This document shows, one piece after another, positions 17,857 to 34,671 of a stretch of DNA of 64,000 nt. Both the position numbers and the translations under genes were made by a program. The notes beneath the pieces are model-generated. The model did not search any database, was not told the origin of the DNA, and saw nothing but the letters and a program-made list of their open reading frames with translations. The number at the start of each line of letters is the position of its first letter. The first letter of the stretch is position 1. Source of the DNA: Nitrospirillum viridazoti CBAmc (GTDB lineage: Bacteria > Pseudomonadota > Alphaproteobacteria > Azospirillales > Azospirillaceae). Location of the stretch: assembly GCF_000730165.1 (NCBI RefSeq), contig NZ_CP022112.1, forward strand, positions 599,501 through 663,500, read 5' to 3'.

Positions 17857-19275
17857 ATGGCCATCCGACACAAGGTCGTCCTTTACAACCCGGCGGCTGT
17901 CTTCCACACCATGCCGTTGGGCTTGTTGGCCATCGGTTCCAACCTTGATTCCGCGCGCTTCGACGTGCGCATCGTCGACGCGCGGATCGAGGCGGACCCC
18001 TTGGGCGCAGTGCTGCGGGCCATCGACGGCGCATTGTGCTTTGGCGTTACCATGCTGACCGGCCGGCCGCTGGGCGACGCGCTGGCCGTGCTGCGGGCGG
18101 TGAAGCGGGCGCGGCCCGACCTCACCACCGTGGCCGGCGGCTGGCATCCCTCCCTGTTCCCGGTGGAGACGCTGGACGAGCCCAGCATCGACATCACAGT
18201 GGCGGGGCAGGGCGAGCGCACCTTCGCGGAGATCATGGATCGTCTGGCCGAGGGCGATGATGTTGAGGGCATCGCCGGCGTCGCCTACCGTGACGGTGAC
18301 CGCGTGGTGCGCACCAAGGCGCGGCATCTGGAAAGCCTGGACGCCTTCGCCCCGCCCAACTTCGACCTGATCCCGGTCGAGCGGTACTTCGAGCTTAAGG
18401 GCCGGCGGCAGCTGGACTACATCGGCTCCATCGGCTGCAACTTCCGCTGCGCCTTCTGTGCCGACCCCTTCGTCTATGGCCGCGACTGGAAGGCGACCTC
18501 GGCCAGCCGCATGGGGGTGGAGATCGAAGCGCTGTGGCGCCGCTATCGCTTCACCGACCTGAATTTCCAGGACGAAACCTACTTCACCCACCGCCACCGC
18601 GTGGCCGACATCTGTGAGGAATTCTTGCGGCGAGGGCTGGACTTCACGTGGGCTGGCACCATGCGCGCCGACCAGGGCGTGCGCCTGCCGGACGAGATCT
18701 GGCGCCTCTGCGTCCGGTCCGGCCTGCGCCGCGTGCTGGTGGGGGTGGAGACCGGGTCGCACGAGATGATGAAGCGCATCAAGAAGGACACCACCATCGA
18801 TGCCATCCTGGAAACGGCAGCCAAGTGCCGGCAGCACGACGTTGCCGTCATCTTCTCCTTCATCGTGGGCTTCCCGGAGGAGACGGAAGCGCAGGTCGAG
18901 GCGACGCTGGGCCTGATCAAGACCCTGCGGGCCATGAGCCCCAAGTTCGAAACACCGCTGTTCTACTACAAGCCCTATCCCGGCTCGGCCCTGGCCGCCG
19001 CCGTGGCGGACCAGACCCCGCGCACCTTGGACGACTGGGCACGGTTCGACTATGTGGCGGGTCCGGCCGGCACCTGGGTGCCGCCGCATCTCTACCGCCG
19101 CATCGAGCGCTTCAAGTTCTACAATAAGTACGCTGCCGGGCCGGTGGCCACTGGCCAGGGGGCCGGCCGGCTGCTGCGCCGGGTGGCGCGCTGGCGCATC
19201 GACCATGACGTCTACGCGGCACCGGTTGAGAAGTTCCTGGTCCAGCATCTGCGCCCCGAACCCTCCTTATCCTGA
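17857..19275 (+). CDS. Radical SAM protein with B12-type N-terminal domain, no. 1 (472 aa)
   Basis: The enzyme should cleave SAM with a [4Fe-4S] cluster to start a radical reaction. Cluster cysteines C194, C198 and C201 are in GCNFRCAFCAD (CX3CX2C). The N-terminal 140 residues have the Rossmann-like cobalamin-binding layout (ALCFGVTMLTGRPLG, VAGGWHPSL, GQGERTFAEIM), but no D-x-H-x-x-G; the equivalent place reads VDARIEADPLG. VLVGVETGSHEMMKRIKK is typical of this class. A start at 17857 has GGTGG five bases upstream. The gene ends 9 bases inside the convergent GT4 gene. C-methylation, epimerisation or another C-H modification of an EPS sugar or lipid carrier is possible (inference). Confidence 0.88.
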   Translation: MAIRHKVVLYNPAAVFHTMPLGLLAIGSNLDSARFDVRIVDARIEADPLGAVLRAIDGALCFGVTMLTGRPLGDALAVLRAVKRARPDLTTVAGGWHPSLFPVETLDEPSIDITVAGQGERTFAEIMDRLAEGDDVEGIAGVAYRDGDRVVRTKARHLESLDAFAPPNFDLIPVERYFELKGRRQLDYIGSIGCNFRCAFCADPFVYGRDWKATSASRMGVEIEALWRRYRFTDLNFQDETYFTHRHRVADICEEFLRRGLDFTWAGTMRADQGVRLPDEIWRLCVRSGLRRVLVGVETGSHEMMKRIKKDTTIDAILETAAKCRQHDVAVIFSFIVGFPEETEAQVEATLGLIKTLRAMSPKFETPLFYYKPYPGSALAAAVADQTPRTLDDWARFDYVAGPAGTWVPPHLYRRIERFKFYNKYAAGPVATGQGAGRLLRRVARWRIDHDVYAAPVEKFLVQHLRPEPSLS

Positions 19276-20544
19276 GGCTTGTTCCGCGTCGATTAAGGAG
19301 GCGCCGGCCGGTGCCTCCCGCGTCGCGGACTTGGGCCGCAGGGCCATTTCCCAGGCGCGCTCGAACCCCGCCGGCGACAGGGCGCGGCGCACGAACGCGG
19401 CCCCCTTGCGCGCGGCGTCGGCCCACAGGTCGGCATAGGCCTCAGGCTGCGTTAGGTAGGGATCCCATTGGTCCTCGGACAGCGTCAGGGGATATCCGGG
19501 GGCCCGCAGCCCCTCCATGGCCGTGCGGTTGCCCAGCACGGGGCAGCCCCAGGCCCAGGCCTCCGCCACCTTGGTCTTGATGCCGCCGGCCACCAGCGCC
19601 GGCACCAGGGCGATGCTGCCTGGCCGGTAAACCTGGGCCAGGTCGTCGGCATAGCCGTGCCAGTGCACGCCGGGCACATTGGCCAGGGGGCGGGTCTGGC
19701 GGCCGTGGATGTGCAGCGGCGTGGCCGGCTTCAGGCGCCGCCATTGATCCAGCAGGAAATCTATAGCCGTGCGGTTCTGCAGCTGCCGATCACTGCCGAT
19801 GAAGACGAAGCGAAGGGGCGCATGGCCGTGCCCCCAAGGCTCCGCCCGCAGGGGCACGCCGGGCGGGATGGCGCGCACCACCGGCGGCCCGTCCTTGGAC
19901 TGTGCCTCCGGGGGCGCGTACCGGCACAGCATCTGCCGTTCCACCGGCGACAGCAGCACCGTGGCGCTGGAGGCCAGCATCACCTCCCGCTCCGCCGCCG
20001 GCAGGGTGCGGGCCTCATAGGCCGTCACCAGGCGGGCCAGCGGTCCTTCCGCCAGGCGGCGCGCCCAGCGGGGAAAGTGCGGGCCGACATGGCCGGTCAG
20101 CAAGGGCAGGCGGTGATGGCGCAGATAGGTCATGCGCCGCGACATCAGGTCGTCGAAGTCGGTGACGATGTGCAGGTCGGGCAGGGCGCGCCGCAGGGTG
20201 CGCAGCAGGGTCTGGCAGCGCACGGTGTCGAGGTAGACGGCATCGAACGCCCCCGCCGCGATGCGCGCCGCCACCCGCTCCGCCTCCCCCGGGCCGGCGT
20301 ACAGCAGGCATTGCAGGGGTGGCGGCCGCCCGCTCGCCAGGCCCGCCAGCCAGGCGGCGGCGGCGCCCAGGCGGTCGGCCCTGCCGCCCTGCAGCACGGA
20401 ATGCAGGGTGATCACCTCCACCGTATGCTGGCGGCGCAGGGCCACCAGGATGTGACCCATGATGGGGGTGCGGCCGTTGCGCTGGGCCAGGTCGCGGGTC
20501 GTCACGAAGGCGATCCGCAAGGCGGGTCTGGAATGGCTGTCCAT
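19267..20544 (-). CDS. Glycosyltransferase, GT4-like (425 aa)
   Basis: A cytoplasmic GT-B glycosyltransferase is predicted. The N-terminal domain begins LRIAFVTTRDLAQRNG and the C-terminal donor-binding domain has FVFIGSDRQLQNRTAIDFLL, HWHGYADDLAQVYRPGSIAL and VAGGIKTKVAEAWAWGCPVL, where the KxxEA segment is the GT4-type E-x7-E region. It should add one sugar to the lipid-linked repeat unit. It is transcribed alone from its own ECF-type promoter, whose -35 overlaps the stop codon of wzy. Donor and acceptor are not readable. Confidence 0.85.
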   Translation of the reverse strand: MDSHSRPALRIAFVTTRDLAQRNGRTPIMGHILVALRRQHTVEVITLHSVLQGGRADRLGAAAAWLAGLASGRPPPLQCLLYAGPGEAERVAARIAAGAFDAVYLDTVRCQTLLRTLRRALPDLHIVTDFDDLMSRRMTYLRHHRLPLLTGHVGPHFPRWARRLAEGPLARLVTAYEARTLPAAEREVMLASSATVLLSPVERQMLCRYAPPEAQSKDGPPVVRAIPPGVPLRAEPWGHGHAPLRFVFIGSDRQLQNRTAIDFLLDQWRRLKPATPLHIHGRQTRPLANVPGVHWHGYADDLAQVYRPGSIALVPALVAGGIKTKVAEAWAWGCPVLGNRTAMEGLRAPGYPLTLSEDQWDPYLTQPEAYADLWADAARKGAAFVRRALSPAGFERAWEMALRPKSATREAPAGASLIDAEQASG

Positions 20545-20588
20545 GGGTCTACCTGAGGCGGGCGCATCCCATGTGCGCCTATCCCCAG

Positions 20589-20614
20589 GACGGATGGCGG
20601 TGCCGGTCTATTCC
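20589..20614 (-). promoter_or_regulatory. ECF-type promoter E (GT4 gene)
   Basis: On the minus strand: GGAATAG at 20614-20608, 15-bp spacer, CGTC at 20592-20589. The -35 element contains the TAG stop codon of the preceding wzy gene (20610-20608). The transcript would start near 20583, about 38 bases before the GT4 ATG. Confidence 0.72.
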
Positions 20615-22050
20615 CTGACTTGAGGCAAATGATTCATGGCGCAGCAGAGGGCCAGCGGAATCCACAGGCCGGCGTCGACGAAGGTGTCCTGGTTCAGGAA
20701 GCTGAATCCTAAGGCCGCGGCGCTGGCCAGGCGGAAATAGCGGTGGAAGGCGTCGTGCGGCCGGCCGCGGAACAGCTGGCGCCAGAAGAAGACGATGAAC
20801 AGGGCGAAGCCCACCACCCCGGTTTCCGACAGCAGGCGCAGGAACAGGTTCTTGGCATTGCCCTTTTCCGGCGAATTGGGGTCCAGCCAGCCGATGCCTT
20901 CCTTGGCCCCCTGGGTGAACAGCTGGGTGGTGAAGGCCCAGTCGGGGGCGTATTCGCCGAAATAGCGGTAGTTGTTGCCCAGGGACACGCCGAAGACGGG
21001 ATGGTCCAGCCAGGTCAGGCCGGCGGCCTCCGCCGCGGCGAAGCGGCCGGCCAGGGCCAGGGCGTCGGTGACGCCGGTGGCGACATCCCCGCCGGCCAGG
21101 CTGTTGAGGTCGGCGGACTCCGTCAGGTAGGCGACCGGCCCCATGACATAGGTGGCCCCCGCCCCGGCGCCCAGGCCGCTCATGGCCACCACCGCCCCGC
21201 CGCCCGCCACCAGCACGCCCAGAAAGGTGGCCGCCGCCAGGATGCGGCCGCGCAGCGCGGCGAAGAAGACGCTGAGCCCCAGCATGGCGACGATGCAGGC
21301 CAGACCGAAGCGGGAGCCGGAGAACAGCAGGCCGCCGATGGCGACGGCGAAGCCGCCGGCCAGGCGCAGGGCGTGGCCGGGCAGGGCCGGCAGCCCCACC
21401 CCCTCCTGCCGCGCCATGGCGCGGGCGATCAGGGCCGGGATCAGCAGCACGATGATCTGGGTGGCCAGCCACGACGGTTCGAACGTCATGCCCTGGGCAC
21501 GGTTGACCAGGCCGTCATAGCGCACGGCGATCAGGTCGGTGAGGGCCTGGACGACGCGCAGCAGCTCCCCATGCTGGGCCATGGCCACCACCTGCACGCC
21601 AGCGAAGGCGATGGAGACGCCCATGCCGATGAACAGGAAGCGCAGGGTCATGCGGATGTCGGCGGCGTTGCGGATCTGCAGCCGGGCCACGACGTAGAAG
21701 GCCAGGCCCACGCCCCAGGTCAGCAGGGCGCGGACCAGGCTGTCCAGCGGGGTCTGGCCCTTGAAGGCGTCCGGTGGCTGGACCATCACGACGCCCAGGC
21801 CGCTGACGACGATGTAGAGGGTGAACAGGCCCAGCGCCGCGAAACCGTCGCCTGCCAGACGGGGCCGCTGATTCAGCACCACCAGGCGGTAGGCGGCCAG
21901 GGTCAGCAGCAATGTTGCCGGCACGATGGCCAAGGGCCGGGCCAGCGTGCCGTTGCCGAAGGGCAGCAGCGGCGTGGCCGAAACCGGCACGCACAACAGC
22001 AGCGCCTGCCATAGGCGTCGTTCGATGGGCTGTAGCGGATCGGCCGTCAT
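20608..22050 (-). CDS. Wzy-like O-antigen ligase/polymerase family membrane protein (480 aa)
   Basis: About 10-12 hydrophobic helices span the protein (e.g. LWQALLLCVPVSATPLLPFG, AAYRLVVL, GLFTLYIVVSGLGVVMV). A large loop near the C-terminus contains HPVFGVSLGNNYRYFG and SPEKGNAKNLFLRLLSETG, the pattern of Wzy_C/O-antigen ligase proteins, with RLLSETGVVGF as the family's conserved end. It would polymerise repeat units on the periplasmic side. The ATG at 22050 overlaps the wzx stop (ATGA). A longer reading that extends upstream to 23391 runs through wzx in another frame and is rejected. Confidence 0.85.
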   Translation of the reverse strand: MTADPLQPIERRLWQALLLCVPVSATPLLPFGNGTLARPLAIVPATLLLTLAAYRLVVLNQRPRLAGDGFAALGLFTLYIVVSGLGVVMVQPPDAFKGQTPLDSLVRALLTWGVGLAFYVVARLQIRNAADIRMTLRFLFIGMGVSIAFAGVQVVAMAQHGELLRVVQALTDLIAVRYDGLVNRAQGMTFEPSWLATQIIVLLIPALIARAMARQEGVGLPALPGHALRLAGGFAVAIGGLLFSGSRFGLACIVAMLGLSVFFAALRGRILAAATFLGVLVAGGGAVVAMSGLGAGAGATYVMGPVAYLTESADLNSLAGGDVATGVTDALALAGRFAAAEAAGLTWLDHPVFGVSLGNNYRYFGEYAPDWAFTTQLFTQGAKEGIGWLDPNSPEKGNAKNLFLRLLSETGVVGFALFIVFFWRQLFRGRPHDAFHRYFRLASAAALGFSFLNQDTFVDAGLWIPLALCCAMNHLPQVRE

Positions 22051-23279: not shown

Positions 23280-23370
23280 TGATGCACCCGATGCGGTGAA
23301 GACCTTCGAAGTGGGGGCAGAGTGGTCCGGCCGCGCCTCGCGGGAAAGCACTATATTTTTCCGGAATTGG

Positions 23371-23396
23371 GGAATATCGGCCGACCGCCATCCGTC
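23371..23396 (+). promoter_or_regulatory. ECF-type promoter F (wzz-GT2-SLBB operon)
   Basis: GGAATAT (23371-23377), 15-bp spacer, CGTC (23393-23396). It lies 30 bases before the wzz ATG in the 147-bp gap that separates the wzx-wzy and wzz operons. Confidence 0.75.
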
Positions 23397-23426
23397 GTTC
23401 TGCCAGGTTTCAGGCGATCGGGGGCG

Positions 23427-24446
23427 ATGACGGTGGGTGTGGATACTCCAGATTTGGCATGGGCCGGCCGCACCGTCCCCGATGGCGCGTCCGATGGCGC
23501 CTGGGTGCCGCGCGGCCAGGGGGGCGATGGGCTTGGGGGCGACGGGCTGGGGGGCGACGGGCTGGGGGGCGATGGCCTGGGCCTGTTCCTGGGCCGCCTG
23601 CGCCGCCACTGGTTTCTGGCCGCCTTCCTGTTCCTGGCCAGCGTCGGCGCCTCCGTCGCGGCCGCCTTCCTGCTGCCCTCCTACTGGCGGGTGGAGGTGC
23701 TGGTGATGCCGGTATCCAAGAGTGGTGCCGGCTTCGGCAACCTGGATCTGGGCAGCGCCTCCGGCCTGTTGGGCGGTCTGGGTGGGCTGGGCGGCGTCGC
23801 CGGCCTGCTGGGCAAGTCATCCTCCTCCAACGAGGATGAGGCCATGGCCGTGCTCGGCTCCCGCGAGCTGTTCGACACCTATGCCGCCCAGCAGGACCTG
23901 CTGCCCATCCTGTTCGCCAGCAAGTGGGACGCGGCGGCCAAGCAATGGAAGGTGCCGGCGGACGAGGTTCCCACCCTGCGCCGGGGTTTCAAGCTGTTCA
24001 ACCGCAGCATCCGCGACATCACCCTTGACCGGCGCAGCGGCATCGTCACGCTGGCCATCACCTGGAAGGACCGCGACCTGGCGGTGCGCTGGGCGCGCGA
24101 CCTGATCGCGCTAACCAACGCCCAATTGCGGGACCGCGCCTTGGCCGACGCCAACCGCAACCTGGCCTATCTGCGCACCGCCATGGCCAACGCCCAGAAG
24201 GAAGGCAACAGCAACGCCCTGAACGCCGCCCTGGTCAGCGCCTACGAACGCACGCTGCAGAATTACATGTACGCGACGGGGCAGACGGAATTCGCCTTCC
24301 GCATCATCGATCCGCCCACCGTGCCCGACGTGCGCGAACGGGTGTGGCCCAACCGGCCCCTGTTCCTGGCCCTGGGCGTCATCCTGGGCGCCCTGCTGGC
24401 CGCCGGGGCGGCGCACTTGCGTGGCCGGGCTGTGGAGCGCCGCTGA
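23427..24446 (+). CDS. Wzz/chain-length determinant-like protein (339 aa)
   Basis: This inner-membrane protein is predicted to set the polymer length. Membrane helices lie near residues 61-85 (FLAAFLFLASVGASVAAAFL) and at the C-terminus (LFLALGVILGALLAAGAAHL), and the periplasmic domain between them is helical, as in Wzz. Residues 32-51 hold four GGDGL repeats encoded by a 15-bp tandem repeat before the first helix. A Gly/Leu-rich segment follows the first helix (LLGGLGGLGGVAGLLG). No tyrosine-kinase domain is fused and none is found nearby. ATG 23427 is preceded by a G-rich stretch and the ECF promoter, so longer frames are rejected. GT2 follows after 3 bases. Confidence 0.85.
   Translation: MTVGVDTPDLAWAGRTVPDGASDGAWVPRGQGGDGLGGDGLGGDGLGGDGLGLFLGRLRRHWFLAAFLFLASVGASVAAAFLLPSYWRVEVLVMPVSKSGAGFGNLDLGSASGLLGGLGGLGGVAGLLGKSSSSNEDEAMAVLGSRELFDTYAAQQDLLPILFASKWDAAAKQWKVPADEVPTLRRGFKLFNRSIRDITLDRRSGIVTLAITWKDRDLAVRWARDLIALTNAQLRDRALADANRNLAYLRTAMANAQKEGNSNALNAALVSAYERTLQNYMYATGQTEFAFRIIDPPTVPDVRERVWPNRPLFLALGVILGALLAAGAAHLRGRAVERR
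23520..23579 (+). repeat. 15-bp tandem repeat x4 in wzz
   Basis: Four in-frame 15-bp units with near-identical sequence (core GGGGGCGACGGGCTG) encode GGDGL four times. Units two and three are identical. Such repeats can change copy number by slippage without breaking the frame. Confidence 0.8.
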
Positions 24447-24449: not shown

Positions 24450-25391
24450 ATGCGCGCGTCCAAGATCGCCATCCTGGTCCCCAGCTACAACGGCGGCGCC
24501 CTGCTGGCCGAGACGGTGGCCTCCGCCGCCCAGGCCGGCGTGCCGCCAGACTGCTATGAGATCGTGGTCTGCGACAACGCTTCCACCGACGGCAGCGCCG
24601 ACGCCTTGCCGGCTCGCGATGCGCAAGGGGCGGCCATCACCGTGCGCCGCAATGCCCAAAATCTTGGCCGTGTCGCCAACTGGAACCTCGCCGTCGAGGT
24701 GGCGGAGGAAATGGGCTTCGGCTTCGCCCTGTTCCTGATGGTGGGCGACCTGGTGCATGGGACGGGCCTCACCAAGTTGCGCGACCGCATGGTGGCCGCC
24801 GGCGCCTGCCTGGGGATCGGCAGCTACGAGATCGTGGATGAGACCTTGCGGCCCCAGCGGGTAGCTCGCCGCATCGTGTGGCGGGGCGCCACGGGCCTTA
24901 CGGCGCAGGCCTTCCTGGCCCAGTCGCTGGCCAGGGGCGCCATGCTTTACGGTCCCCTGGGCGCCAATCTCTATTGGCTTGGGGGCGGCGCGCATCTGCG
25001 CTTCGACCCGTCGGACGAAAGCCACACAGACCAGTTGGCCACCGCCGTCTTCACCCGCGTGGCCGGGGGTGGGGTGGTCTATCTGGACCAGCCCATTTCC
25101 CGCTGGCGGGCGCGGCCCGGCCGCTTCCACAGCGGCATGGAACCCCGGGGGCGGCTGGCCAGCGACGTGCGGGTCATGGAATGGGCCTGCCAGGCCGCCC
25201 GGGTGGCGCCTGACTATCCCAAGATCCGGGCCAGCCTGCTGCTGCGCGGCGCCTGGCTGACCCGGGGCGACCTCAGGGCCGCCTGGGCCTGGTCCGGCGC
25301 CCTGGTGCCGGCCGCCCCCTCCTGGACTTGGTTATTCCGCCTGCTGTGCCGGCAGGCGTTCCACAAGACACCCTGGCTGGTGAAGGCCTGA
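24450..25391 (+). CDS. Glycosyltransferase family 2 protein (313 aa)
   Basis: The GT-A fold is shown by IAILVPSYNGGALLAETVAS, then YEIVVCDNASTDGSAD and a FLMVGDLVHG segment in the place of the DxD metal site. The order and length match GT2 enzymes that use nucleotide-sugar donors. The protein is soluble with a C-terminal helical tail. It is in the wzz operon (3-base gap) and 4 bases before the SLBB gene. It probably adds one EPS sugar; the donor is unknown. Confidence 0.87.
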   Translation: MRASKIAILVPSYNGGALLAETVASAAQAGVPPDCYEIVVCDNASTDGSADALPARDAQGAAITVRRNAQNLGRVANWNLAVEVAEEMGFGFALFLMVGDLVHGTGLTKLRDRMVAAGACLGIGSYEIVDETLRPQRVARRIVWRGATGLTAQAFLAQSLARGAMLYGPLGANLYWLGGGAHLRFDPSDESHTDQLATAVFTRVAGGGVVYLDQPISRWRARPGRFHSGMEPRGRLASDVRVMEWACQAARVAPDYPKIRASLLLRGAWLTRGDLRAAWAWSGALVPAAPSWTWLFRLLCRQAFHKTPWLVKA

Positions 25392-25395: not shown

Positions 25396-28377
25396 ATGAC
25401 GAAAATGAATGGGGCGACGATGAGCTCAGGCCGGAAATGGGCCCGCCACGCCATGCTGCTGGCGGCGTTGGCCTCCAGCGTGACGCCGGGCCTGGCGCAG
25501 GCGCAGGGGCTGTCGCAGCTGCTGGGCGGCGGCAACGGCAACGACCTGACCGGCGACCTGCTGCGCACGGTGCAGCAGCGCCTGACCGGCCAGTCCACCA
25601 TACCCTCGCTGCAGCCCGACGTTCAGGTGCAGAACCCGGCCGTTCAGCAGGGCCCCCAGGCCTATGGCCCGCCCTCGGCCATCGAACGGCTGATGAGCGC
25701 CCGCGCCGGCCAGCCCATCCGCCAGTACGGCTATGAGGTCTTCGGCCGGGGCGCCCCGGTGGTGGTCAGGCAGAGCGGCGCCCTGCAGGACGGCTACATT
25801 CTGGGCGAGGGGGATGAGATCGTGCTGACCCTGCGCGGGCAGCAGAACGCCAGCTACCGCACCCGGGTGGACCGCGACGGCCGGGTGGTGTTCCCCGGCT
25901 TGCCGCCCGTCGCGGCGGCCGGCCGGTCATTCGGCGGCTTCCGCGAGGATCTGGAGGATGCGGCCGGGCGCGCCCTGACGGGGACGGAGGTGCTGGTGTC
26001 CGTCGGCGCGGTGCGCCAGATTGCCGTGCGCGTGACGGGGGAGGTCAACGCCCCCGGCCTGTTCAACCTATCCGGCCTGGCCACCGCCATGGATGCCCTG
26101 TCCCTGGCGGGCGGTATCAAGAACACGGGCTCCCTGCGCGACGTGCAGGTGGTGCGGGGCGGCCGCAGCTTCCGCCTGGATCTGTACACCCTGCTGATGG
26201 GGGACGCCGCCGGCCGCGACATTCCGCTGGCGGAAGGGGACCGCATCGTCGTGCCCTTGCAGACCAGCGCCGTGGCCGTTGTCGGCCAGGTGAAGCGCCC
26301 CGCCATCTATGAACTGCCGGCCGGGCAGCAGGCCACGCCGCTGTCCTCCCTCATGGCCATGGCGGGGGGCACGGAGGTACGCGGCAGCTACCGCTACTCC
26401 ATCCTGCGTACCCGCGACGATGGCAAGCGGGAGATGGTGCAGGTGGGTGCCGGCGGCGGCGCCACGGTCCATGACGGCGACGTGGTGTTCGTGGCGCCCA
26501 CGGCCGACATCTCGCTGGCCAAGGTGGAGTTGCGCGGCGCGACCACCCTGAACGGCAGCTATCCCCTGGAAACGGTGCGCTCCCTGCGCGGCCTGCTGGC
26601 CTCCAGCGACATGTTCGCGCCCGCGGTGGGGCGGCCCTTGCCCTATCTGCTGGCCGACGCCGTCATCCGCCTGGATCCGGCGACCCTGCAGCGCACGGTC
26701 ATCCCCTTCGCCGTGTCCGACGTGCTGGAGGGCAAGGCCGACATGGCCCTGCAGTCCAACGACGTCGTCTACATCACCAACGTGGCGGAGATGCGCTACA
26801 TCGCCCACAAGGCGGGGGACCTGCAGCGCAACCCGACCCGCAAGGTGAACGACCATCCCGACCCGGTGCCGCCGCCGCCGGTGCCTGATGCCAACGCCGC
26901 CCTGCAAGTCCAGGCGTTGCCGCCCGGCCTGGCGGCGGATCCGCGCCTGGCGCAGCTGGCGGCCATACAGGGCATCCAGCTGCCGGCCGGCCAGTCGGGC
27001 GGGGCCGGGCAGGGTGCCGCCCTGCTGGCCGCCAACCCGACCTATGCCGCCTACGCCGCCAACCAGCTGGGCCAGCAGAACCCGGCGCTTCAGGACCAGG
27101 GCCCGCCCAAGCCGGAGGAGGAGCGGCTGAACCCTGGCATTGTGGCGCCGCCGGATATTCTCACCGCCCAGGACGGCAGCACCGCCCGGGCGGATGACGA
27201 TCAGGACCAGACGATGACCCTGCCGGCCGGTGCCGGGCCCCTGAGTGCCAGCCAACTGGGTGTCAGCCAGGCCCAGCATTCCCGCCGGCCGCCCCTGCGC
27301 CTGTTCGTCGGTCTGGATGACGATACCCGCCGCCTGCTGGTCGGCACCCTGACCAACTACCACGTCACGGTGGTGGGCGAGGTCAACAGCCCCGGCGATT
27401 TCCTGGTCATGCCCGGCGCCACGCTGGACAAGCTGGTGCAGGCGGCGGGCGGCCTGACGCCCAAGGTGGATCTGCACGCCTTCGAGGTCACCTCCGCCGA
27501 TATCGACAATGCGTCCGGCCTGTCGCGCACCGTGCGCCACAGCTATGGCCTGCCGGTGGCGCAGTTCGCGCAGGTGGCGCTGAAGCCCTTCGATCGCGTG
27601 CGCTTCAACCCCGTTTTCTCCGACCGCGACACGGGCGACGTCACCCTGTCGGGCGAGGTCAAGTTCCCCGGCGGGTATGAGATCTTGCGCGGCGAGCATC
27701 TGTCGTCCGTCCTGGCGCGGGCTGGCGGCTTCACGGACGCCGCCTACCCGGCCGGCGTGGTGTTCCTGCGCCAGTCGGTGGCGGAATCCCAGCGCGACAC
27801 CCTGCAGAAGGAGGCGGATGCGCTGGAGCGCCAAATCATCTCCATCGTCGGCAATGTCAGCGGCAAGGTGCAGGTGACGGATGGGGAAATCGCCTACGTC
27901 ACCCAGATGATCGGCCGTCTGCGCCAGGGCATCGGCCCCGCCAGCGGCCGGGTGGCGGTGCATGTCGACCCGAGGGAGATTGCGGCCCATCCGGAACTGG
28001 ACCTGGTGATGGAGCCGGGCGACCAGCTGGTGGTGCCGCGCCAGCCCAGCGCCGTGGTGGTCTCGGGTGAGGTCATGGCCCCGGGCGGCATCCAGTTCCG
28101 CAGCGACCGCAGCGTGGACGACTACATCGCCATGGCCGGCGGCATGACGGAAATCGCGGACGACGACCATGTCTTCGTGGTGCAGCCAGACGGTTCCGCC
28201 ATCCAGGTGGACGGTGGCGGCTGGCTATCCAGCCCGCCGAAGCTGGCGCCCGGCTCGGTCATCGTCGTGCCGCGCAAGCTGCGCCACTTCACCTGGGACA
28301 GCATCCTGATGGACATCATCCAGGTCACCAGCCAGCTGGCCATCACCGGCGCCTCGCTGGCCGTGATCTCAAAGTAA
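25396..28377 (+). CDS. Large SLBB-domain polysaccharide export protein, Wza-like (993 aa)
   Basis: The protein should form the periplasm and outer-membrane export channel for the polymer. A signal peptide (HAMLLAALASSVTPGLAQA) has no lipobox. The polysaccharide export domain begins around residue 134 (YILGEGDEIVLTLRG). SLBB-type units follow near residues 213 (VTGEVNAPGLFNLSG), 293 (VVGQVKRPAIYELPAG), 376, 657 (VVGEVNSPGDFLVMPG), 748 (LSGEVKFPGGYEILRG) and 887 (VSGEVMAPGGIQFRSD). At 993 aa it is much longer than E. coli Wza (about 380 aa), because of the SLBB repeats and a Pro/Gln/Ala-rich linker (about 480-620). It ends the wzz operon; a GC hairpin and another ECF promoter follow. Confidence 0.9.
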   Translation: MTKMNGATMSSGRKWARHAMLLAALASSVTPGLAQAQGLSQLLGGGNGNDLTGDLLRTVQQRLTGQSTIPSLQPDVQVQNPAVQQGPQAYGPPSAIERLMSARAGQPIRQYGYEVFGRGAPVVVRQSGALQDGYILGEGDEIVLTLRGQQNASYRTRVDRDGRVVFPGLPPVAAAGRSFGGFREDLEDAAGRALTGTEVLVSVGAVRQIAVRVTGEVNAPGLFNLSGLATAMDALSLAGGIKNTGSLRDVQVVRGGRSFRLDLYTLLMGDAAGRDIPLAEGDRIVVPLQTSAVAVVGQVKRPAIYELPAGQQATPLSSLMAMAGGTEVRGSYRYSILRTRDDGKREMVQVGAGGGATVHDGDVVFVAPTADISLAKVELRGATTLNGSYPLETVRSLRGLLASSDMFAPAVGRPLPYLLADAVIRLDPATLQRTVIPFAVSDVLEGKADMALQSNDVVYITNVAEMRYIAHKAGDLQRNPTRKVNDHPDPVPPPPVPDANAALQVQALPPGLAADPRLAQLAAIQGIQLPAGQSGGAGQGAALLAANPTYAAYAANQLGQQNPALQDQGPPKPEEERLNPGIVAPPDILTAQDGSTARADDDQDQTMTLPAGAGPLSASQLGVSQAQHSRRPPLRLFVGLDDDTRRLLVGTLTNYHVTVVGEVNSPGDFLVMPGATLDKLVQAAGGLTPKVDLHAFEVTSADIDNASGLSRTVRHSYGLPVAQFAQVALKPFDRVRFNPVFSDRDTGDVTLSGEVKFPGGYEILRGEHLSSVLARAGGFTDAAYPAGVVFLRQSVAESQRDTLQKEADALERQIISIVGNVSGKVQVTDGEIAYVTQMIGRLRQGIGPASGRVAVHVDPREIAAHPELDLVMEPGDQLVVPRQPSAVVVSGEVMAPGGIQFRSDRSVDDYIAMAGGMTEIADDDHVFVVQPDGSAIQVDGGGWLSSPPKLAPGSVIVVPRKLRHFTWDSILMDIIQVTSQLAITGASLAVISK

Positions 28378-28385: not shown

Positions 28386-28411
28386 GGAATAAAGGGCCCC
28401 CGGTTTCCGTC
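28386..28411 (+). promoter_or_regulatory. ECF-type promoter C (radical SAM operon)
   Basis: GGAATAA (28386-28392), 15-bp spacer, CGTC (28408-28411), 9 bases after the SLBB stop codon. It drives the operon that begins with radical SAM no. 2. The spacer contains the left arm of a long hairpin. Confidence 0.75.
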
Positions 28412-28438
28412 CTTGGGTTAAGGGCGGGCCGGGGGCCC
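28394..28438. terminator. 10-bp perfect hairpin nested with ECF promoter C
   Basis: GGGCCCCCGG (28394-28403) pairs with CCGGGGGCCC (28429-28438) around a 25-base loop. Transcripts reading through from the SLBB gene would carry both arms. Transcripts begun at promoter C (about 28418) would carry only the right arm. No U-run is clear (GTTCCATTCTTCC follows), so termination may need Rho or be partial. Confidence 0.5.
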
Positions 28439-28469
28439 GTTCCATTCTTCCTCCGCGATGGGATGGCGG

Positions 28470-29975
28470 ATGCCTCGCATATTAGTCGGCAGTGTTTATT
28501 TCCTGCGCCTGGATCCGGCGCGGTGGGCGGAACATCAGCCGTTCCCGCCGCTGGGCACCCTCTATGCCGCCGGCACGCTGCAGGCGGCCGGGCATGAGGT
28601 GCATTTCTTTGACGCCATGATCGCCCAGGCCGTGACGGAGTGGTCGGCGCGGGTGGCGGAAGTGCGGCCGGAGGTCGCCGTCCTCTATGACGACAATTTC
28701 AACTACCTGTCCAAGATGTGCCTGTCGGCCATGCGGCTGGCGGCGCTGGAGATGATCGCCGCCGCCACGGCTGTGGGGGCCAAGGTCGCCATCTGCAGTG
28801 CCGACGCCGCCGACCATCCCGACCTCTACCTCGACGCCGGTGCCGGCGCCGTCATCGTGGGCGAGGGGGAGTTAACCTTGGCGGAGCTGACGGCCGCCTG
28901 GCGCGATGGTGCCGATGACCTGTCCGCTGTCAAGGGCCTGGCCTGGCGCAAGGGCGCGGAAACCGTACGTAATCCCAAGCGTGAGGTGCTGCGCGATCTG
29001 GACGCCCTGCCGCCGCCGGCCTGGGAACTGGTGGACATGGATGCCTACCGCCAGGTCTGGCGCCGGCACCACGGCTTCTTCGCCCTCAACCTGGTCACCT
29101 CGCGCGGCTGTCCCTATTCCTGCAATTGGTGCGCGAAGCCCATCTGGGGCCAAGGCTACGCCGTGCGCGGTGCCCGGGCTGTGGCGGAGGAATTGGCGCG
29201 CCTGGTCTGCCTGGCAGCACCCGACTACATCTGGTTCATGGACGACATCATGGGGCTGAAGCCCCGCTGGTGGGGGGAGTTCGCCGCCGCCATCGACGAT
29301 CTGGGCGTCAAGGTACCGTTCAAATGCCTCAGCCGCGCCGACCTCGTGCTGCGCGAGGGCGCAGTCGACGACCTGAAGCGCGCCGGCTGCGACATCGTCT
29401 GGCTGGGGGCGGAGTCCGGCAGCCAGAAGATCCTGGACGCCATGGACAAGGACCTGTCGACCGGGGAGATCGCGGAGGCGACGGCGAAGCTGAAGGCCGC
29501 GGGCATCCGCGTCGGCCACTTCCTGCAATTCGGCTATCCCGGCGAGGGCATGGCCGAAATCGGCCAGACCCTGGCCATGCTGCGCGCCACCCGGCCGGAT
29601 GAGATGGGCATTTCCGTCTCCTACCCCCTGCCCGGGACGGTGTTTTATGAGCGGGTGCAAAGCCAGCTGCGGGACAAGCGGCATTGGGACGTGTCGTCCG
29701 ACATGGCCATGCTGTACCGGGGCCCCTACACCACCGCCTTTTACCGCCACCTGCACACTTACGTGCATCGTGACTTCCGTGTGCGCCGGGCGGTGGCGCA
29801 GTTGCGGGAGGCCGTGAGGGGCCGGGCCGAGGGCGGCGATCATCTGCGGGCCCTGGCCTTCGTCGCCTATTGCGGCGTGGCCATCCCGTTGTCCTGGGCG
29901 CGGCTGCAGCTGCTGCGCCTGATGCCCCATCCGGCGGCCCCCCGGGTGATGACCGCAGGCAGGGCGGCGCCGTGA
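28470..29975 (+). CDS. Radical SAM protein with B12-type N-terminal domain, no. 2 (501 aa)
   Basis: Cluster cysteines C214, C218 and C221 are in GCPYSCNWCAK. The N-terminal half has the cobalamin-domain layout (FPPLGTLYAAGTLQAAGHEV, VIVGEGELTLAEL) but lacks D-x-H-x-x-G (FFDAMIAQAV instead). The core has DYIWFMDDIMG and WLGAESGSQKILDAMDKD, usual in this class. The start at 28470 (MPRILVG) is preceded by a purine-rich GGGATGG; an ATG at 28458 is possible. It is the first gene of the operon that runs to 35390 and overlaps the next gene (GTGA). The C-terminal 80 residues, with HLHTYVHRDFRVRRAV, may bind a lipid or carrier; this is a guess. Confidence 0.88.
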   Translation: MPRILVGSVYFLRLDPARWAEHQPFPPLGTLYAAGTLQAAGHEVHFFDAMIAQAVTEWSARVAEVRPEVAVLYDDNFNYLSKMCLSAMRLAALEMIAAATAVGAKVAICSADAADHPDLYLDAGAGAVIVGEGELTLAELTAAWRDGADDLSAVKGLAWRKGAETVRNPKREVLRDLDALPPPAWELVDMDAYRQVWRRHHGFFALNLVTSRGCPYSCNWCAKPIWGQGYAVRGARAVAEELARLVCLAAPDYIWFMDDIMGLKPRWWGEFAAAIDDLGVKVPFKCLSRADLVLREGAVDDLKRAGCDIVWLGAESGSQKILDAMDKDLSTGEIAEATAKLKAAGIRVGHFLQFGYPGEGMAEIGQTLAMLRATRPDEMGISVSYPLPGTVFYERVQSQLRDKRHWDVSSDMAMLYRGPYTTAFYRHLHTYVHRDFRVRRAVAQLREAVRGRAEGGDHLRALAFVAYCGVAIPLSWARLQLLRLMPHPAAPRVMTAGRAAP

Positions 29976-31372
29976 CCGACATCCTGCTGACCCACGGCTA
30001 TTTCCTGATGGCGGATCCGGCGGAGCGGGCGGTGATGAAGCCCTATCCGCCGCTGGGCCTGCTCTACATCTCCTCCCACCTCAAGGCCCAGGGCTTCGGG
30101 GTGGAGGTGATGGACACCACTTTCATGGACATGGCCGCCGCCCAGGCCACCTTGGCGGCGAAGCGGCCGGCGGTGGTGGGCATCTACGTCAATCTCATGA
30201 CGCGCGGCAACGCCCTGCGTCTGGCGGCGGCGGCCAAGGCAGCGGGCGCCACCGTCATTTTCGGGGGGCCGGAGCCCGCCAACTACGCCGAGGAATACCT
30301 GGCGCGCGGTGGCGACATCGTCGTGTCGGGGGAGGGGGAGCTGACCCTGGCGGAGCTGATCCCCCATCTGGCCCGCCACGGTCTGACGGAACTGGAGCAG
30401 GTTCACGGCATCGCCTATCGCGGCGAGGACGGCGGCGTGTGCTGTACCCCGGCGCGCAAGCAGATCGCTGACCTGGACGCCCAGCCCTTCCCCGACCGGG
30501 GCGCCATCGATCTGGAGCGTTATCTGCAGACCTGGAAGACGCACCACGGCGTGCGCTCCGTCTCCCTGATCGTGGCGCGGGGCTGCCCCTACACCTGCAA
30601 CTGGTGCAGCCATTCCGTCTTCGGGCACAGCCACCGCCGCCGATCCCCCCAGAACGTGGCGGATGAGATCGAGTTCATTCGCGACACCTATGCCCCGGAC
30701 CAGCTGTGGTTCGCCGATGACGTTTTCACCATCAACCAGAAATGGCTGGAACAGTTCGCGGCCGAAATGAAGCGCCGGGGCCTGCGCTACCCGTTCGAGA
30801 CCATCACGCGTGAGGACAGGCTGAACGAGCGGGTGGCCGACCTGTTGGCGGAACTGGGCTGCTACCGCATCTGGATCGGGGCGGAAAGCGGCTCACAGCG
30901 CATCCTGGACGCCATGCAGCGCCGGACCAACGCCGTGCGCATGCGCGAGATGATCGCCCTGGTGCAGGATCGGGGCATCCGCGCCGGCACCTTCATCATG
31001 CTGGGCTACGATGGCGAGACCTGGCAGGACATTGACGAGACGGCCCGCCACCTGCGCCTGTCGGCGCCCGATGACGTGCTGACCACCATCAGTTATCCCA
31101 TCAAGGGCACGCCCTATTACGACAAGGTGGCGGACCGCATAGCCGGCGGCGGCGCCTGGCAGGAGAGCAGCGACCGCGCCCTGACGGTGGTGGGGCGCAA
31201 GTCGCGCCGCTTCTACCGCCATGCCCAGCACTGGCTTGCGGCGGAAAGCCGCCTGGGCCGGCTGGAGGCCGCGCCCCGCCGCGACCTGCTGCGGCATGCC
31301 AAGGCGCGCGCCTCCTCCGCGCTCAGCCGCCTTGCCATGTACGCCACCCGGCATGAGGTGGAACATGGCTGA
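29972..31372 (+). CDS. Radical SAM protein with B12-type N-terminal domain, no. 3 (466 aa)
   Basis: Cluster cysteines C205, C209 and C212 are in GCPYTCNWCSH. N-terminal features are YPPLGLLYISSHLKAQGFGV and VVSGEGELTLAELI, with VMDTTFMDMA where D-x-H-x-x-G would be. WIGAESGSQRILDAMQRR follows. The protein is similar in layout to radical SAM no. 2, so the two probably arose by duplication and act on related substrates. GTG at 29972 overlaps the previous stop, and the gene's 3' end overlaps the methyltransferase start by 8 bases. Confidence 0.88.
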   Translation: MTDILLTHGYFLMADPAERAVMKPYPPLGLLYISSHLKAQGFGVEVMDTTFMDMAAAQATLAAKRPAVVGIYVNLMTRGNALRLAAAAKAAGATVIFGGPEPANYAEEYLARGGDIVVSGEGELTLAELIPHLARHGLTELEQVHGIAYRGEDGGVCCTPARKQIADLDAQPFPDRGAIDLERYLQTWKTHHGVRSVSLIVARGCPYTCNWCSHSVFGHSHRRRSPQNVADEIEFIRDTYAPDQLWFADDVFTINQKWLEQFAAEMKRRGLRYPFETITREDRLNERVADLLAELGCYRIWIGAESGSQRILDAMQRRTNAVRMREMIALVQDRGIRAGTFIMLGYDGETWQDIDETARHLRLSAPDDVLTTISYPIKGTPYYDKVADRIAGGGAWQESSDRALTVVGRKSRRFYRHAQHWLAAESRLGRLEAAPRRDLLRHAKARASSALSRLAMYATRHEVEHG

Positions 31373-32171
31373 GGCCCTGTTGCAGCCGGCGGCCTTCGAC
31401 CGCTTCGCCGACGATTACGACGCCGGCTTTGCCCACAGCATTCCCGGCCGCTGGCTGCGCCATGCCGTGTGGCGGCAGGTCGGCGCCCACCTCCGGCCGG
31501 GCATGCGCGCCCTGGACCTGGGCTGCGGCACGGGGGAGGACGCCCTGTGGCTGGCCCATGCCGGCACCCAGGTGACGGCGGCCGACGGGTCCCCCGCCAT
31601 GCTGCGGGTGACGGCCGATAAGGCGGCGCGCCTGGGCATGGCCGACAGGGTCGTCACGCGCCGGATCGACCTCAACGCCCCCGCCGACCTTTCTCCGGCG
31701 GATGGTGGCGGCCCCTATGACCTGGTGCTATCCAACTTCGGCGCCTTGAACTGCGCTATTGACCTGGCGCCCTTGGCCGACGCCCTGCGCCGGGCGGTGG
31801 CACCGGGCGGGGTGGTGGCCCTGGTGGTCATGGGACGCTTCTGCGCCTGGGAAACCCTGTGGTACGGGGCGCGCCTGCGCCGTACCGCTGTGCGCCGCTG
31901 GTCTGGCCGCTCCACCGCCGACATTGGCGGCGCCACCATCCCCATCCGCTATTGGACCCCAGGCGACATCGCCCGCGCTTTCGCGCCGGCGTTCCAGCCG
32001 GTCTCCGTCCATCCGGTGGGGGTGTTCCTGCCGCCATCCGACCTGTTCGCCGGGCTGGAGCGTCATCCCCGCCACCTGACTCGCCTGATGCGCTGGGAGA
32101 CCCGGGTGGTCGGCCGTTCGTGGCTGGCTGGGCTGGCCGACCATCATCTGACCTTGCTGCGGCATGTTTAA
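31365..32171 (+). CDS. Class I SAM-dependent methyltransferase (268 aa)
   Basis: Motif I is ALDLGCGTGEDALWLAHAG; an acidic motif II follows in VTAADGSPAML, then YDLVLSNFGALNC and a late VAPGGVVALVVMG strand. The N-terminus (FDRFADDYDAGFAH) is typical of methyltransferase type 11/12 proteins. It is soluble, in the middle of the radical SAM operon and overlaps radical SAM no. 3 (ATGGCTGA). It may O- or N-methylate an EPS sugar or precursor. The substrate is unknown. Confidence 0.85.
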   Translation: MAEALLQPAAFDRFADDYDAGFAHSIPGRWLRHAVWRQVGAHLRPGMRALDLGCGTGEDALWLAHAGTQVTAADGSPAMLRVTADKAARLGMADRVVTRRIDLNAPADLSPADGGGPYDLVLSNFGALNCAIDLAPLADALRRAVAPGGVVALVVMGRFCAWETLWYGARLRRTAVRRWSGRSTADIGGATIPIRYWTPGDIARAFAPAFQPVSVHPVGVFLPPSDLFAGLERHPRHLTRLMRWETRVVGRSWLAGLADHHLTLLRHV

Positions 32172-32186
32172 GGAAGCGACCGCGCC

Positions 32187-33659
32187 ATGATCCTGTTCTA
32201 CAACCCCGTCAGCTCCGCCTCCAAGAAGCCGGTCCTGCCCATGTCGTTGCTGGCCATCGGCGCCATGCTGGAGGGGGTGGAGGAGTATCGCATCGTCGAT
32301 GGCAACCTGGTGCCGGATGGCTTGACGGCCTTGCGCCAGGCGCTGGTCGAGACCAAGGCCGACATCCTGTGCGTGACGGTGATGCCGGGGCCGCAGCTGT
32401 CCAACGCCTCCCCCATCTGCCGGGCGCTGAAGGCGGAGTTTCCTCACGTCACCATACTCTGGGGCGGCTATTTCCCCACCCTGCACGGCCAGATCGTGAT
32501 GCAGGAGGCTTACGTCGATTATGTCTTCCGAGGCCATTGCGAACTGGCCTTTGGCGAGTTCGTCGCCAAGGTGCGGGCGGGGGAGGATGTGACCGGCCTG
32601 CCGGGCCTGGGCTGGCGCGATGCCGAGGGCAAGGTGCACCTGAACCAGAAGCCGCCGGTGCCCGACATCAACGCGCTGCCGGACTTCCCCTATCACCGGG
32701 TGGATATGGACGCATACGTCCGCTCCTCCTTCTTAGGATCCCGCACCATCGCTCACCACGCCAGCTACGGCTGCCCCTTCCAGTGCAATTTCTGCGCGGT
32801 GGTGCACAAGGTGAACGGCCGCTATTCCGCCCAGACGGCGGAGCGCACGGCCGCCGTGGTGGAAAAGCTGGTGCGCGAGCACGGCGCCACGGCGGTGGAA
32901 TTCTACGACAGCAACTTCTTCGTCCATGAGGCCCGCTGCGCCGAGTTCGCGGAGCGCATCACCCACCTGGACATCGGCTGGTGGGGCTTCGGCCGCGCCG
33001 ACACCATGCTGAAGTTCAGCGACGCGACCTGGGCCAAGATGCGCAAGAGCGGCCTGAAGATGGTGTTCATGGGGGCGGAATCCGGCGACCTGGAAACCCT
33101 GAAGCGCATGAACAAGGGCGGCAAGCAGGACGGCAACGCCATCCTGGCGGTGGCGGAAAAGATGCGCCGCCATGACGTGGTGCCGGAGATGTCCTTCATC
33201 ATCGGCAACCCGCCGGACCCGGCGAAGGATGCCGAAAACACTATCCAGTTCATACGGATGCTGAAGAAAGTTAATCCGGCGACGGAGATCGTGTTCTACA
33301 TCTACAGCCCCGTGCCGGTGGAGGGCGCCATGCTGCAGGAGGCGCAGGCAGCCGGCTTCGAATACCCCAAGGACGTGGCGACCTGGACCGAGGCGAAGTG
33401 GGAGAAGTTCGCCCAGCACCTGTCGTCCAACCTGCCGTGGATGAACGACGACATCCGCCGCAAGATCGGCAATTTCCAGCGGGTGCTGCACGCCCGCTAC
33501 CCCACCATGACCGACACCCGCCTGACCCGCACGGGGCGCTTCGCCCTGCGCACCATGGCGGCTTGGCGCTACAAGACGCAGTTCTACGACTTCCCCATCG
33601 AACTGCGCCTGCTGGACAAGGTGTTCCCCTACCAGCGTCCCGAAATCCAGGGATTCTAG
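32187..33659 (+). CDS. Radical SAM protein with B12-type N-terminal domain, no. 4 (490 aa)
   Basis: Cluster cysteines C196, C200 and C203 are in GCPFQCNFCAV. The N-terminal region begins MILFYNPVSSASKKPVLPMS and continues WGGYFPTLHGQIVM and FRGHCELAFGEFV, a cobalamin-domain layout; IVDGNLVPDG replaces D-x-H-x-x-G. MGAESGDLETLKRMNKGG follows in the core. It resembles radical SAM no. 1 (MAIRHKVVLYNP) at its N-terminus more than nos. 2 and 3, suggesting two subtypes in the cluster. It begins 15 bases after the methyltransferase and ends one base before radical SAM no. 5. Confidence 0.88.
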   Translation: MILFYNPVSSASKKPVLPMSLLAIGAMLEGVEEYRIVDGNLVPDGLTALRQALVETKADILCVTVMPGPQLSNASPICRALKAEFPHVTILWGGYFPTLHGQIVMQEAYVDYVFRGHCELAFGEFVAKVRAGEDVTGLPGLGWRDAEGKVHLNQKPPVPDINALPDFPYHRVDMDAYVRSSFLGSRTIAHHASYGCPFQCNFCAVVHKVNGRYSAQTAERTAAVVEKLVREHGATAVEFYDSNFFVHEARCAEFAERITHLDIGWWGFGRADTMLKFSDATWAKMRKSGLKMVFMGAESGDLETLKRMNKGGKQDGNAILAVAEKMRRHDVVPEMSFIIGNPPDPAKDAENTIQFIRMLKKVNPATEIVFYIYSPVPVEGAMLQEAQAAGFEYPKDVATWTEAKWEKFAQHLSSNLPWMNDDIRRKIGNFQRVLHARYPTMTDTRLTRTGRFALRTMAAWRYKTQFYDFPIELRLLDKVFPYQRPEIQGF

Positions 33660-33660
33660 G

Positions 33661-34671
33661 ATGGGCGCCCTTCCCCTAGCGCGCGCCTGGCGGGGCCGGC
33701 GCCTGGCCCGGGTGCCGGTGGTCACCCTGATGCCGCACAGCCGCTGCAACTGCCGTTGTGTCATGTGCGACATCTGGAAGGCCAACCGCAACGGCACCAG
33801 CCTGGAACAGGCGGCGATGGACCGTCTGGTGGAGGATTTCAGCGCCCTGGGCGTGCGCTGGGTGGTGCTCTCGGGCGGGGAGGCGCTGATGCACCCCAAC
33901 CTGTGGGGCCTGTGCGCGGCGCTGAAGACCCTGCCGCTGAAGATCACCCTGCTCAGCAGCGGGCTGCTGCTGGAACGGCACGCCGCCGACATCGTGGACT
34001 GGTGTGACGAGGTTATCGTGTCGCTGGACGGGCCCGAGGCCACGCATAACCGCATCCGCGGCATCAAGGGCGCCTACGCCTCCCTGGCCGCCGGCGTGGA
34101 CGCGTTGCGCCGTCGCCGTGCCGATTATCCTGTGGCGGCGCGCTGCGTCATCCAGCGCGGTAATTTCCATGAGCTGCCCGCCATCGTCGATGCCGCCAAG
34201 GCCATCGGCCTGGACAGCATTTCCTTCCTGGGCGCTGACCTCACCTCCACCGCCTTCAACCGGCCGCAGGCCTGGGCGGAGGGCCGGGTGGAGGAGGTGG
34301 GCCTGGCACCTGCGGAATGCGACGCCCTGGATGTCGCCATCGATCAGTTGGCCGCCAGCCATGGCGGCGACTTCGCCGGCCGCTACATCCAGGAAAGCCC
34401 GGCCCGTCTGCGCCGCATCAGCGCCCGGTACCGTGCGGCCCATGGCATGACGCCGCCGCCACCCGTGCGCTGCAACGCGCCTTGGGTCTCCACGGTGGTG
34501 GAGGCCGACGGCACGGTGCGGCCCTGCTTCTTCCATGACCCCATCGGCAGCCTGCGCGACGGCACCCTGCCGGAAATCCTGAACGGCCCTGTGGCGCGCT
34601 CCTTCCGCGCCGCGTTGGACGTGGACAGCAATCCCGTCTGTCAGCGCTGCGTCTGCAGCCTCAAGCTATGA
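33661..34671 (+). CDS. Radical SAM/SPASM protein, no. 5 (336 aa)
   Basis: Cluster cysteines C29, C33 and C36 lie in SRCNCRCVMCDIW, close to the N-terminus, so there is no B12 domain. GVRWVVLSGGEALMHPNL and EVIVSLDGPEATHNRIRG follow the usual radical SAM core. The C-terminal region has RCNAPWVSTVVEADGTVRP, CFFHDPIG and PVCQRCVCSLKL, a SPASM-type second cluster site. SPASM enzymes often modify peptides or sugars; no small precursor peptide is evident in the adjacent gaps, so a glycan or lipid substrate is equally possible. Its stop overlaps the next ATG (ATGA). Confidence 0.88.
   Translation: MGALPLARAWRGRRLARVPVVTLMPHSRCNCRCVMCDIWKANRNGTSLEQAAMDRLVEDFSALGVRWVVLSGGEALMHPNLWGLCAALKTLPLKITLLSSGLLLERHAADIVDWCDEVIVSLDGPEATHNRIRGIKGAYASLAAGVDALRRRRADYPVAARCVIQRGNFHELPAIVDAAKAIGLDSISFLGADLTSTAFNRPQAWAEGRVEEVGLAPAECDALDVAIDQLAASHGGDFAGRYIQESPARLRRISARYRAAHGMTPPPPVRCNAPWVSTVVEADGTVRPCFFHDPIGSLRDGTLPEILNGPVARSFRAALDVDSNPVCQRCVCSLKL

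Follow-up and report, generated by a model that had tools for sequence, protein, structure and literature searches.

We analyzed a 64,000-nucleotide stretch of Nitrospirillum viridazoti CBAmc DNA, hereafter the window (G000:C3:599501-663500), part of a 1.6-Mb replicon in an Azospirillaceae genome of 7.38 Mb. It carries five radical S-adenosylmethionine (SAM) enzyme genes, RS1 to RS5, among genes for polysaccharide synthesis and export. By comparative genomics, a cassette built on a nucleotidyltransferase-like protein (NTP), the radical SAM enzyme RS2, and the methyltransferase MT1 is separable from the host polysaccharide genes; its probable product is a surface sugar with an uncharacterised radical-made modification. 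The nearest named relatives are other Nitrospirillum strains, with an RS4 identity of 83-99%.

Four of the five enzymes are of the B12 type, namely RS1 (17836..19275, + strand), RS2 (28458..29975, +), RS3 (29972..31372, +), and RS4 (32187..33659, +), and the fifth, RS5 (33661..34671, +), is a radical SAM/SPASM protein. The Pfam Radical_SAM domain was matched by all five and the B12-binding domain by RS1 to RS4, marginally so for RS2 (31.2 bits against a cut-off of 32.1), which bears out a preliminary description of four B12-type genes and one SPASM gene at 17.8-34.7 kb. Matches to Radical_SAM (PF04055) occur at 24 places in the genome, five of them inside this 17 kb. As had also been described, all five proteins have an unbroken CX3CX2C motif, and it is complete in all full-length orthologues collected; one RS5 fragment at a contig edge lacks it. 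RS5 matched the SPASM family PF13186 with 43.9 bits (gathering score 21.5), and five C-terminal cysteines (C271, C289, C327, C330, and C332) are invariant in the alignment of its family, whereas a complete SPASM domain has seven.

The genes RS2-RS3-MT1-RS4-RS5-MT2 are tightly packed behind a Wza-like gene (gaps of -8 to 15 bp), and the longer run from a family 2 glycosyltransferase gene (GT2) through Wza and RS2 to MT2 lies on one strand, its genes spaced -8 to 80 bp apart. MT1 (31365..32171, +) is a class I SAM methyltransferase by its Pfam match, and MT2 (34668..35390, +) is an MTS/PrmC-like class I methyltransferase (PF05175). NTP (16832..17731, -) joins a winged helix (residues 1-74) to a pol-beta-type nucleotidyltransferase domain (~81-208). 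Its assignment draws on a match to PF01909 (NTP_transf_2; 22.4 bits, cut-off 21.0), on the motif [TS]GxL[AS]..DxD, present in 26/26 orthologues, and on its fold and a gene fusion; no NCBIfam family was matched. A recurrent member of the cassette is an amidohydrolase of the adenosine/guanine-type deaminase group (36068..37123, -; PF01979), whose family keeps the metal-ligand motifs HDH, HLAE, VHG, and GTD. The range first proposed for the locus, 17857-34671, did not hold: the locus runs further, with NTP, the amidohydrolase, a Wzi-like gene, and a priming transferase gene lying outside it.

A cassette recurring across phyla

RS4 was used to scan the genomes of 84,980 species, and orthologues at 40-54% identity were found in Chloroflexi, Schekmanbacteria, and Bacteroidetes. 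When the genes of the window were mapped onto the loci reached in this way, NTP, RS2, RS3, MT1, RS4, RS5, and MT2 recurred together. In the same mapping, the Wzx, Wzy, Wzz, and GT1 genes of the window were found in Nitrospirillum only, and its GT2 and Wza genes only in Nitrospirillum and two close alphaproteobacterial relatives. The core of NTP, RS2, and MT1 recurs in Alphaproteobacteria, Chloroflexota, Bacteroidota, and Schekmanbacteria, with RS3, RS4, RS5, MT2, and the deaminase-like amidohydrolase as frequent additions, and minimal loci carry NTP-RS2-MT1 alone (L129, L133-L136, and L138). Across 58 RS2 loci, NTP is present in 45 (no more than 500 bp away in 35 of these) and MT1 in 49; the preliminary description had missed NTP and had not singled out MT1 among these commonest partners.

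The radical SAM families can be told apart. Orthologues of RS2 score ~410-510 bits to RS2 against ~235-320 to RS3, and those of RS4 mostly 400-550 bits to RS4 against ~200 to RS1. In a FastTree phylogeny of 116 proteins, RS2 (38 members, support 100), RS4 (31 members, support 100), and RS1 formed supported clades, as did RS3 (18/20 rows, support 100) except for a single divergent sequence present as two identical rows. The families fall into two sister pairs, RS2/RS3 and RS1/RS4. Direct partnership is supported by gene fusions: L019 and the related L119 encode NTP(22-324)-RS2(344-828) as a single frame of 846 aa, L042 an RS3-MT1 protein of 784 aa, and L145 an RS2-MT1 protein of 727 aa.

Co-occurrence was followed in 301 Chloroflexota genomes, which encode RS2 in 18 cases, NTP in 20, and RS4 in 12. 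RS2 and NTP coincide in 17 of them (Fisher 8e-24), NTP and RS4 in 11 (5e-14), and RS2 and RS4 in 10 (2e-12), P values that take no account of the shared ancestry, and hence phylogenetic dependence, of these genomes. Each of the 20 genomes reached via RS4 (18 distant, two close) has RS2- or RS3-type proteins as well, even the six in which RS4 stands alone at its own place.

RS2 orthologues were found in 27/395 Bacteroidota, 18/301 Chloroflexota, and 2/398 Pseudomonadota genomes, so that the cassette occurs in ~6-7% of the sampled genomes of the first two phyla. Within the order of the window, 7/7 Nitrospirillum genomes have RS2, all seven together with RS4, against 3/75 others. This patchy distribution, together with the RS2 tree, in which two other Azospirillaceae group with Bacteroidota at a support of 90 that does not settle the matter, suggests that the cassette spread horizontally; RS2 had no match in 72,556 plasmids. 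Three Bacteroidota RS2 matches (L142, G542:C18:30644-32134; G574:C17; G812:C79) contain one to three in-frame stop codons and may be decayed copies, assembly errors, or cases of recoding. A separate array with up to four B12-type radical SAM genes close by was seen in Bathycorpusculum/Nitrososphaerota metagenome-assembled genomes (L052-L054, L056, L058-L060, and L062).

The make-up of the cassette varies around its core. RS1, an uncommon addition, is missing from one Nitrospirillum locus (G004) and has a single Chloroflexi orthologue, placed between RS2 and RS3 in L116. RS5 is absent even from the close relative L031. The amidohydrolase adjoins RS2 in several Chloroflexi (L110-L113 and L115), and in several Bacteroidota it lies near RS4 with a further methyltransferase (c21/b4). 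The block is real, co-conserved, and placed beside polysaccharide genes across phyla, but the five radical SAM genes do not form one fixed unit, and we rejected treating all those at 17.8-34.7 kb as such because RS1 and RS5 vary. Membership of the Nitrospirillum Wzx, Wzy, Wzz, and Wza genes in the travelling block was rejected as well, as no orthologues were found beside the cassette in Chloroflexota, Bacteroidota, or the Azospirillaceae genome G026. A mere gathering of unrelated radical SAM genes in a variable exopolysaccharide island could be imagined, since such loci are gene-exchange hotspots and RS1 and RS5 are variable. It is scarcely credible in view of the cross-phylum orthology, synteny, co-occurrence, and fusions, which refute it for NTP, RS2, RS3, RS4, and MT1; RS1 might still be such a chance neighbor.

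Glycan genes beside the cassette

Outside Nitrospirillum, the usual neighbors of the cassette are flippases, Wzy-type ligases, and glycosyltransferases unrelated to those of the window. Among 98 proteins flanking it, the commonest Pfam families were GT4 (13), GT2 (7), Wzy_C (7), and Polysacc_synt (6). With our own profiles, a flippase or Wzy was detected at 18/27 cassette loci against 0/30 unrelated B12-type radical SAM loci of similar length, a contrast that is inflated because these profiles were partly trained on cassette loci; any GT4 or GT2, by profiles subject to the same partial training, was detected at 21/27 against 8/30. Three Bacteroidota loci carry GT87- and GT9-type genes instead. 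Both L031 and L032 include genes for an APH-like kinase and for a nucleotidyltransferase; the nucleotidyltransferase of L031 matches a solved "nucleoside-diphosphate-sugar pyrophosphorylase" (2e-63), a sequence likeness that fits a role in sugar activation.

The association has a looser side. Two Azospirillaceae loci (G026 and G101) have one glycosyltransferase and neighboring MacB/HlyD/TolC-type genes. The preliminary description had held that orthologues occurring away from exopolysaccharide genes would speak against it, and this was found in part, because some cassette loci, those of G026/G101 and several Bacteroidota, adjoin glycosyltransferases only.

We favor, with somewhat better than even confidence, the reading that the cassette is a horizontally spread, modular radical SAM tailoring unit plugged into a Wzx/Wzy/Wza-type capsule or exopolysaccharide locus, where it would modify a surface-glycan sugar. 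Direct observations are the gene set, its orthology, co-occurrence, and fusions, the integrity of the motifs, and the glycan genes that often lie nearby. Several points weigh against this reading. Besides the inflated profile contrast, the loci L019, L119, L042, L044, L046, and L047 have glycosyltransferases only, with no flippase or Wzy, and a few cassette loci are without any recognised glycan gene. In the window itself, the Wzx assignment was made from position, the protein having no Pfam match. For NTP, the model reaches only moderate quality (predicted local distance difference test score 78) and the fold matches are weak, the six best structural matches of RS2 described below are nearly tied (Z 18-21) and act on diverse substrates, and every substrate step is inferred.

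Relatives of the enzymes and the proposed chemistry

The RS2 model, compared by VIA-align, came closest to AprD4 (Z 20.8) and OxsB (Z 20.2), then to MgmA, CysS, TsrM, and TokK, all within Z 18-21. These proteins share with RS2 the full fold of B12 domain and radical SAM barrel, and profile comparison links them to RS4 as well, but they are only 15-20% identical to RS2 and have other gene partners. AprD4 acts on a pseudosaccharide and OxsB on a nucleotide. AprD4, which heads the structural matches, is not known to use B12, so that RS2 could by analogy be B12-free despite its B12-type domain. The nearest solved relative of RS5 is BlsE (PDB profile match, E 8e-21), the cytosylglucuronate decarboxylase of the blasticidin S pathway (PMC3715490). 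This likeness covers the radical SAM core, with only profile positions 12-175 aligning, and RS5 scores 46.4 bits against a cut-off of 400 for TIGR04466. The closeness of the RS2 model to AprD4 and OxsB, and of RS5 to an enzyme acting on a sugar-acid nucleoside, is part of the case for the surface-glycan reading.

For the pol-beta domain of NTP, the closest solved folds were ANT(4')/kanamycin nucleotidyltransferase, a modest match (Z 7.4-7.7 over ~113 residues) from a VIA-align listing dominated by the winged-helix domain, in which the absence of other nucleotidyltransferase families is uninformative. Aminoglycoside nucleotidyltransferases (ANT(4'), kanamycin nucleotidyltransferase, and AadA) and MNT antitoxins resemble NTP in a pol-beta-like domain with the G(S)..DxD motif, but NTP differs by its N-terminal winged helix and its radical SAM partner and has no significant sequence-level match.

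All five radical SAM proteins fell under the cut-offs of the NCBIfam radical SAM equivalogs (BchE, HpnJ, HpnR, AprD4, TIGR04295, PhpK, and others) by a wide margin, the best score being that to BchE (113-168 bits against a cut-off of 481). This agrees with the suggestion of a candidate undescribed system: no curated NCBIfam family names these proteins, and a literature search of open-licence papers yielded no description of the cassette. Radical SAM tailoring clusters and glycan loci are each already known; their portable combination was not found described in the literature searched.

These resemblances also bear on another reading, in which the product is not a polymer but a small glycosylated metabolite for export, a natural product akin to aminoglycosides or nucleosides, and the Nitrospirillum capsule genes are a separate system. 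The likeness of RS2 to the aminoglycoside enzyme AprD4, of NTP to aminoglycoside nucleotidyltransferases, and of RS5 to BlsE would suit it, as would the nucleoside-directed helper enzymes and the G026/G101 operon, whose single glycosyltransferase adjoins the exporter genes. We nevertheless regard it as the less probable reading, though one to be taken seriously: most Chloroflexota loci are flanked by a flippase, Wzy_C, and several glycosyltransferases, the GT2-Wza-RS2...MT2 run of the window is packed on one strand, and the three Bacteroidota loci are partnered with GT87- and GT9-type genes.

Three unrelated nucleoside-type enzymes recur near the core: the deaminase-like amidohydrolase, a PNP_UDP_1 phosphorylase, and a CDA-like deaminase recognised by reading from its HAE/PCxxC pattern. 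The window amidohydrolase matched PRK12393 alone in NCBIfam (23.9 bits) and did not reach the MTA/SAH/5'-deoxyadenosine deaminase family; its L036 orthologue scored 45.5 bits to the 5'-deoxyadenosine deaminase model, under the cut-off of 522. 5'-Deoxyadenosine is described as a known inhibitory by-product of radical SAM enzymes (PMC8102628). The recurrent enzymes may either clear 5'-deoxyadenosine or remove a nucleosyl group from an intermediate, and both roles fit. None of 25 genomes had strong matches to both the amidohydrolase and the phosphorylase (7 and 5 carriers), an alternation expected by chance about 1 in 6 times and not used as evidence. In Bacteroidota cassettes, short CDA-like deaminases adjoin MT1 (L146:8238, L150:8118, and L160:11123) and have an N-terminal hydrophobic segment, which is odd for a nucleoside deaminase.

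In the HpnH/HpnG/HpnJ hopanoid tail pathway and the aminofutalosine pathway, radical SAM enzymes work with nucleoside phosphorylase or adenosine-type deaminase logic. The cassette follows a like logic, but its enzymes are not orthologous to these. Modification of a hopanoid or other lipid, as by HpnH/HpnG/HpnJ/HpnR, was considered, given the resemblance of HpnJ/BchE-type B12 radical SAM enzymes plus a nucleoside phosphorylase to HpnG/HpnJ and the hopanoid cyclitol ethers made by Nitrospirillum amazonense (PMC12583986). We consider it very improbable and rejected it because most cassette genomes lack a cyclase: a convincing squalene-hopene cyclase was found in the genome of the window only, ~0.5 Mb off on the same replicon, and the other 21 cassette genomes have no match or a weak one, below 50 bits save for a split match that reached 66 bits. 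The HpnJ and HpnR scores were also far under their cut-offs. Maturation of a ribosomally synthesized and post-translationally modified peptide (RiPP) seems just as improbable. SPASM and B12-type radical SAM enzymes are often RiPP maturases, and weak NCBIfam similarity to RiPP models was seen, but every such model scored under its cut-off. This reading was rejected because the packed operon of the window leaves no space for a precursor gene; among the recurrent neighbors we recognised neither a precursor nor a leader-binding domain or peptidase, the other loci not being searched peptide by peptide.

For the favored surface-glycan reading, we propose that NTP acts on a small sugar-like substrate, by adding a nucleotide or in some other way. 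On this substrate RS2, the most constant B12-type enzyme, would make a radical change (C-methylation or rearrangement/dehydration). MT1 might next methylate the product on O or N, and RS3, RS4, RS1, RS5, and MT2 would contribute lineage-specific changes. The amidohydrolase, or elsewhere the nucleoside phosphorylase or CDA-type deaminase, would remove 5'-deoxyadenosine or a nucleosyl part, and host glycosyltransferases and an exchangeable exporter would build and export the modified glycan. A more specific version, in which the pol-beta NTP tags the sugar with a nucleotide, RS2 and the methyltransferase act on the tagged intermediate, and deaminases or nucleosidases untag it to give radical-modified surface glycans across phyla, is offered tentatively and is rather unlikely to hold in full. 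If the favored reading is right, radical chemistry serves bacteria as a portable module for tailoring their surface glycans, sugars outside current glycan surveys are to be expected, and Nitrospirillum is a genetically accessible model. The cassette offers up to five new radical SAM families with defined partners, and the natural NTP-RS2 fusion suits structure and assay work.

Host polysaccharide genes and other neighbors

The window shares with Wzx/Wzy/Wza capsule and exopolysaccharide loci a priming transferase, flippase- and polymerase-like proteins, a chain-length protein, an SLBB export protein, and a Wzi-like protein, but these genes lie outside the cross-phylum cassette, and other genomes use other export genes. 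The Wzi-like capsule assembly outer-membrane protein (3876..5339, +) matched PF14052 (Caps_assemb_Wzi, E 2e-50), and the WcaJ/EPS-type priming sugar-1-phosphate transferase (5870..6760, +) matched PF02397 (E 1.8e-65) and TIGR03025 (307.6 bits, cut-off 295.55). Next to RS1 are the glycosyltransferase GT1 (19267..20544, -; Glyco_trans_1_4), a Wzy-like polymerase/ligase (20608..22050, -; Wzy_C, E 4.9e-6, under the gathering score), and a Wzx-like flippase (22047..~23456, -, start approximate), which has many hydrophobic segments by reading. On the other strand follow a Wzz/GNVR-type chain-length protein without a kinase domain (23427..24446, +; PF02706 and PF13807, weak), the GT2 glycosyltransferase (24450..25391, +; PF00535), and the Wza-like polysaccharide export protein of 993 aa with five SLBB stretches (25396..28377, +; PF02563, Poly_export, and PF10531). 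The radical SAM genes do stand beside methyltransferase and Wzx/Wzy/Wzz/Wza-like genes, as first described. Of the parts of a Wzx/Wzy-dependent polysaccharide locus, the priming transferase and exporter are clear, the Wzy and Wzz matches being weak and the Wzx-like protein having no Pfam match.

In line with NTP lies a gene for a 494-aa protein (15341..16825, -) that has no Pfam or NCBIfam match and is conserved in other Nitrospirillum loci; from a reading of its sequence, it is possibly a GT-B glycosyltransferase. An ABC exporter gene (MsbA/CydD/HepA-like; 13512..15368, +) beside the cassette falls in the same BLAST cluster as transporters near other cassette loci. Upstream are a 680-aa open frame joining Gfo/Idh/MocA oxidoreductase and D-2-hydroxyacid dehydrogenase domains (11416..13458, -) and a protein of DUF1302, a family of unknown function (9794..11419, +; E 2e-104). 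Further downstream, an MtrB/PioB outer-membrane barrel adjoins a multihaem c-type cytochrome (38650..42404, -), likely an extracellular electron-transfer conduit, and genes for a TolC-type OEP and an AcrB-type RND pump lie at 56516..61994 (+).

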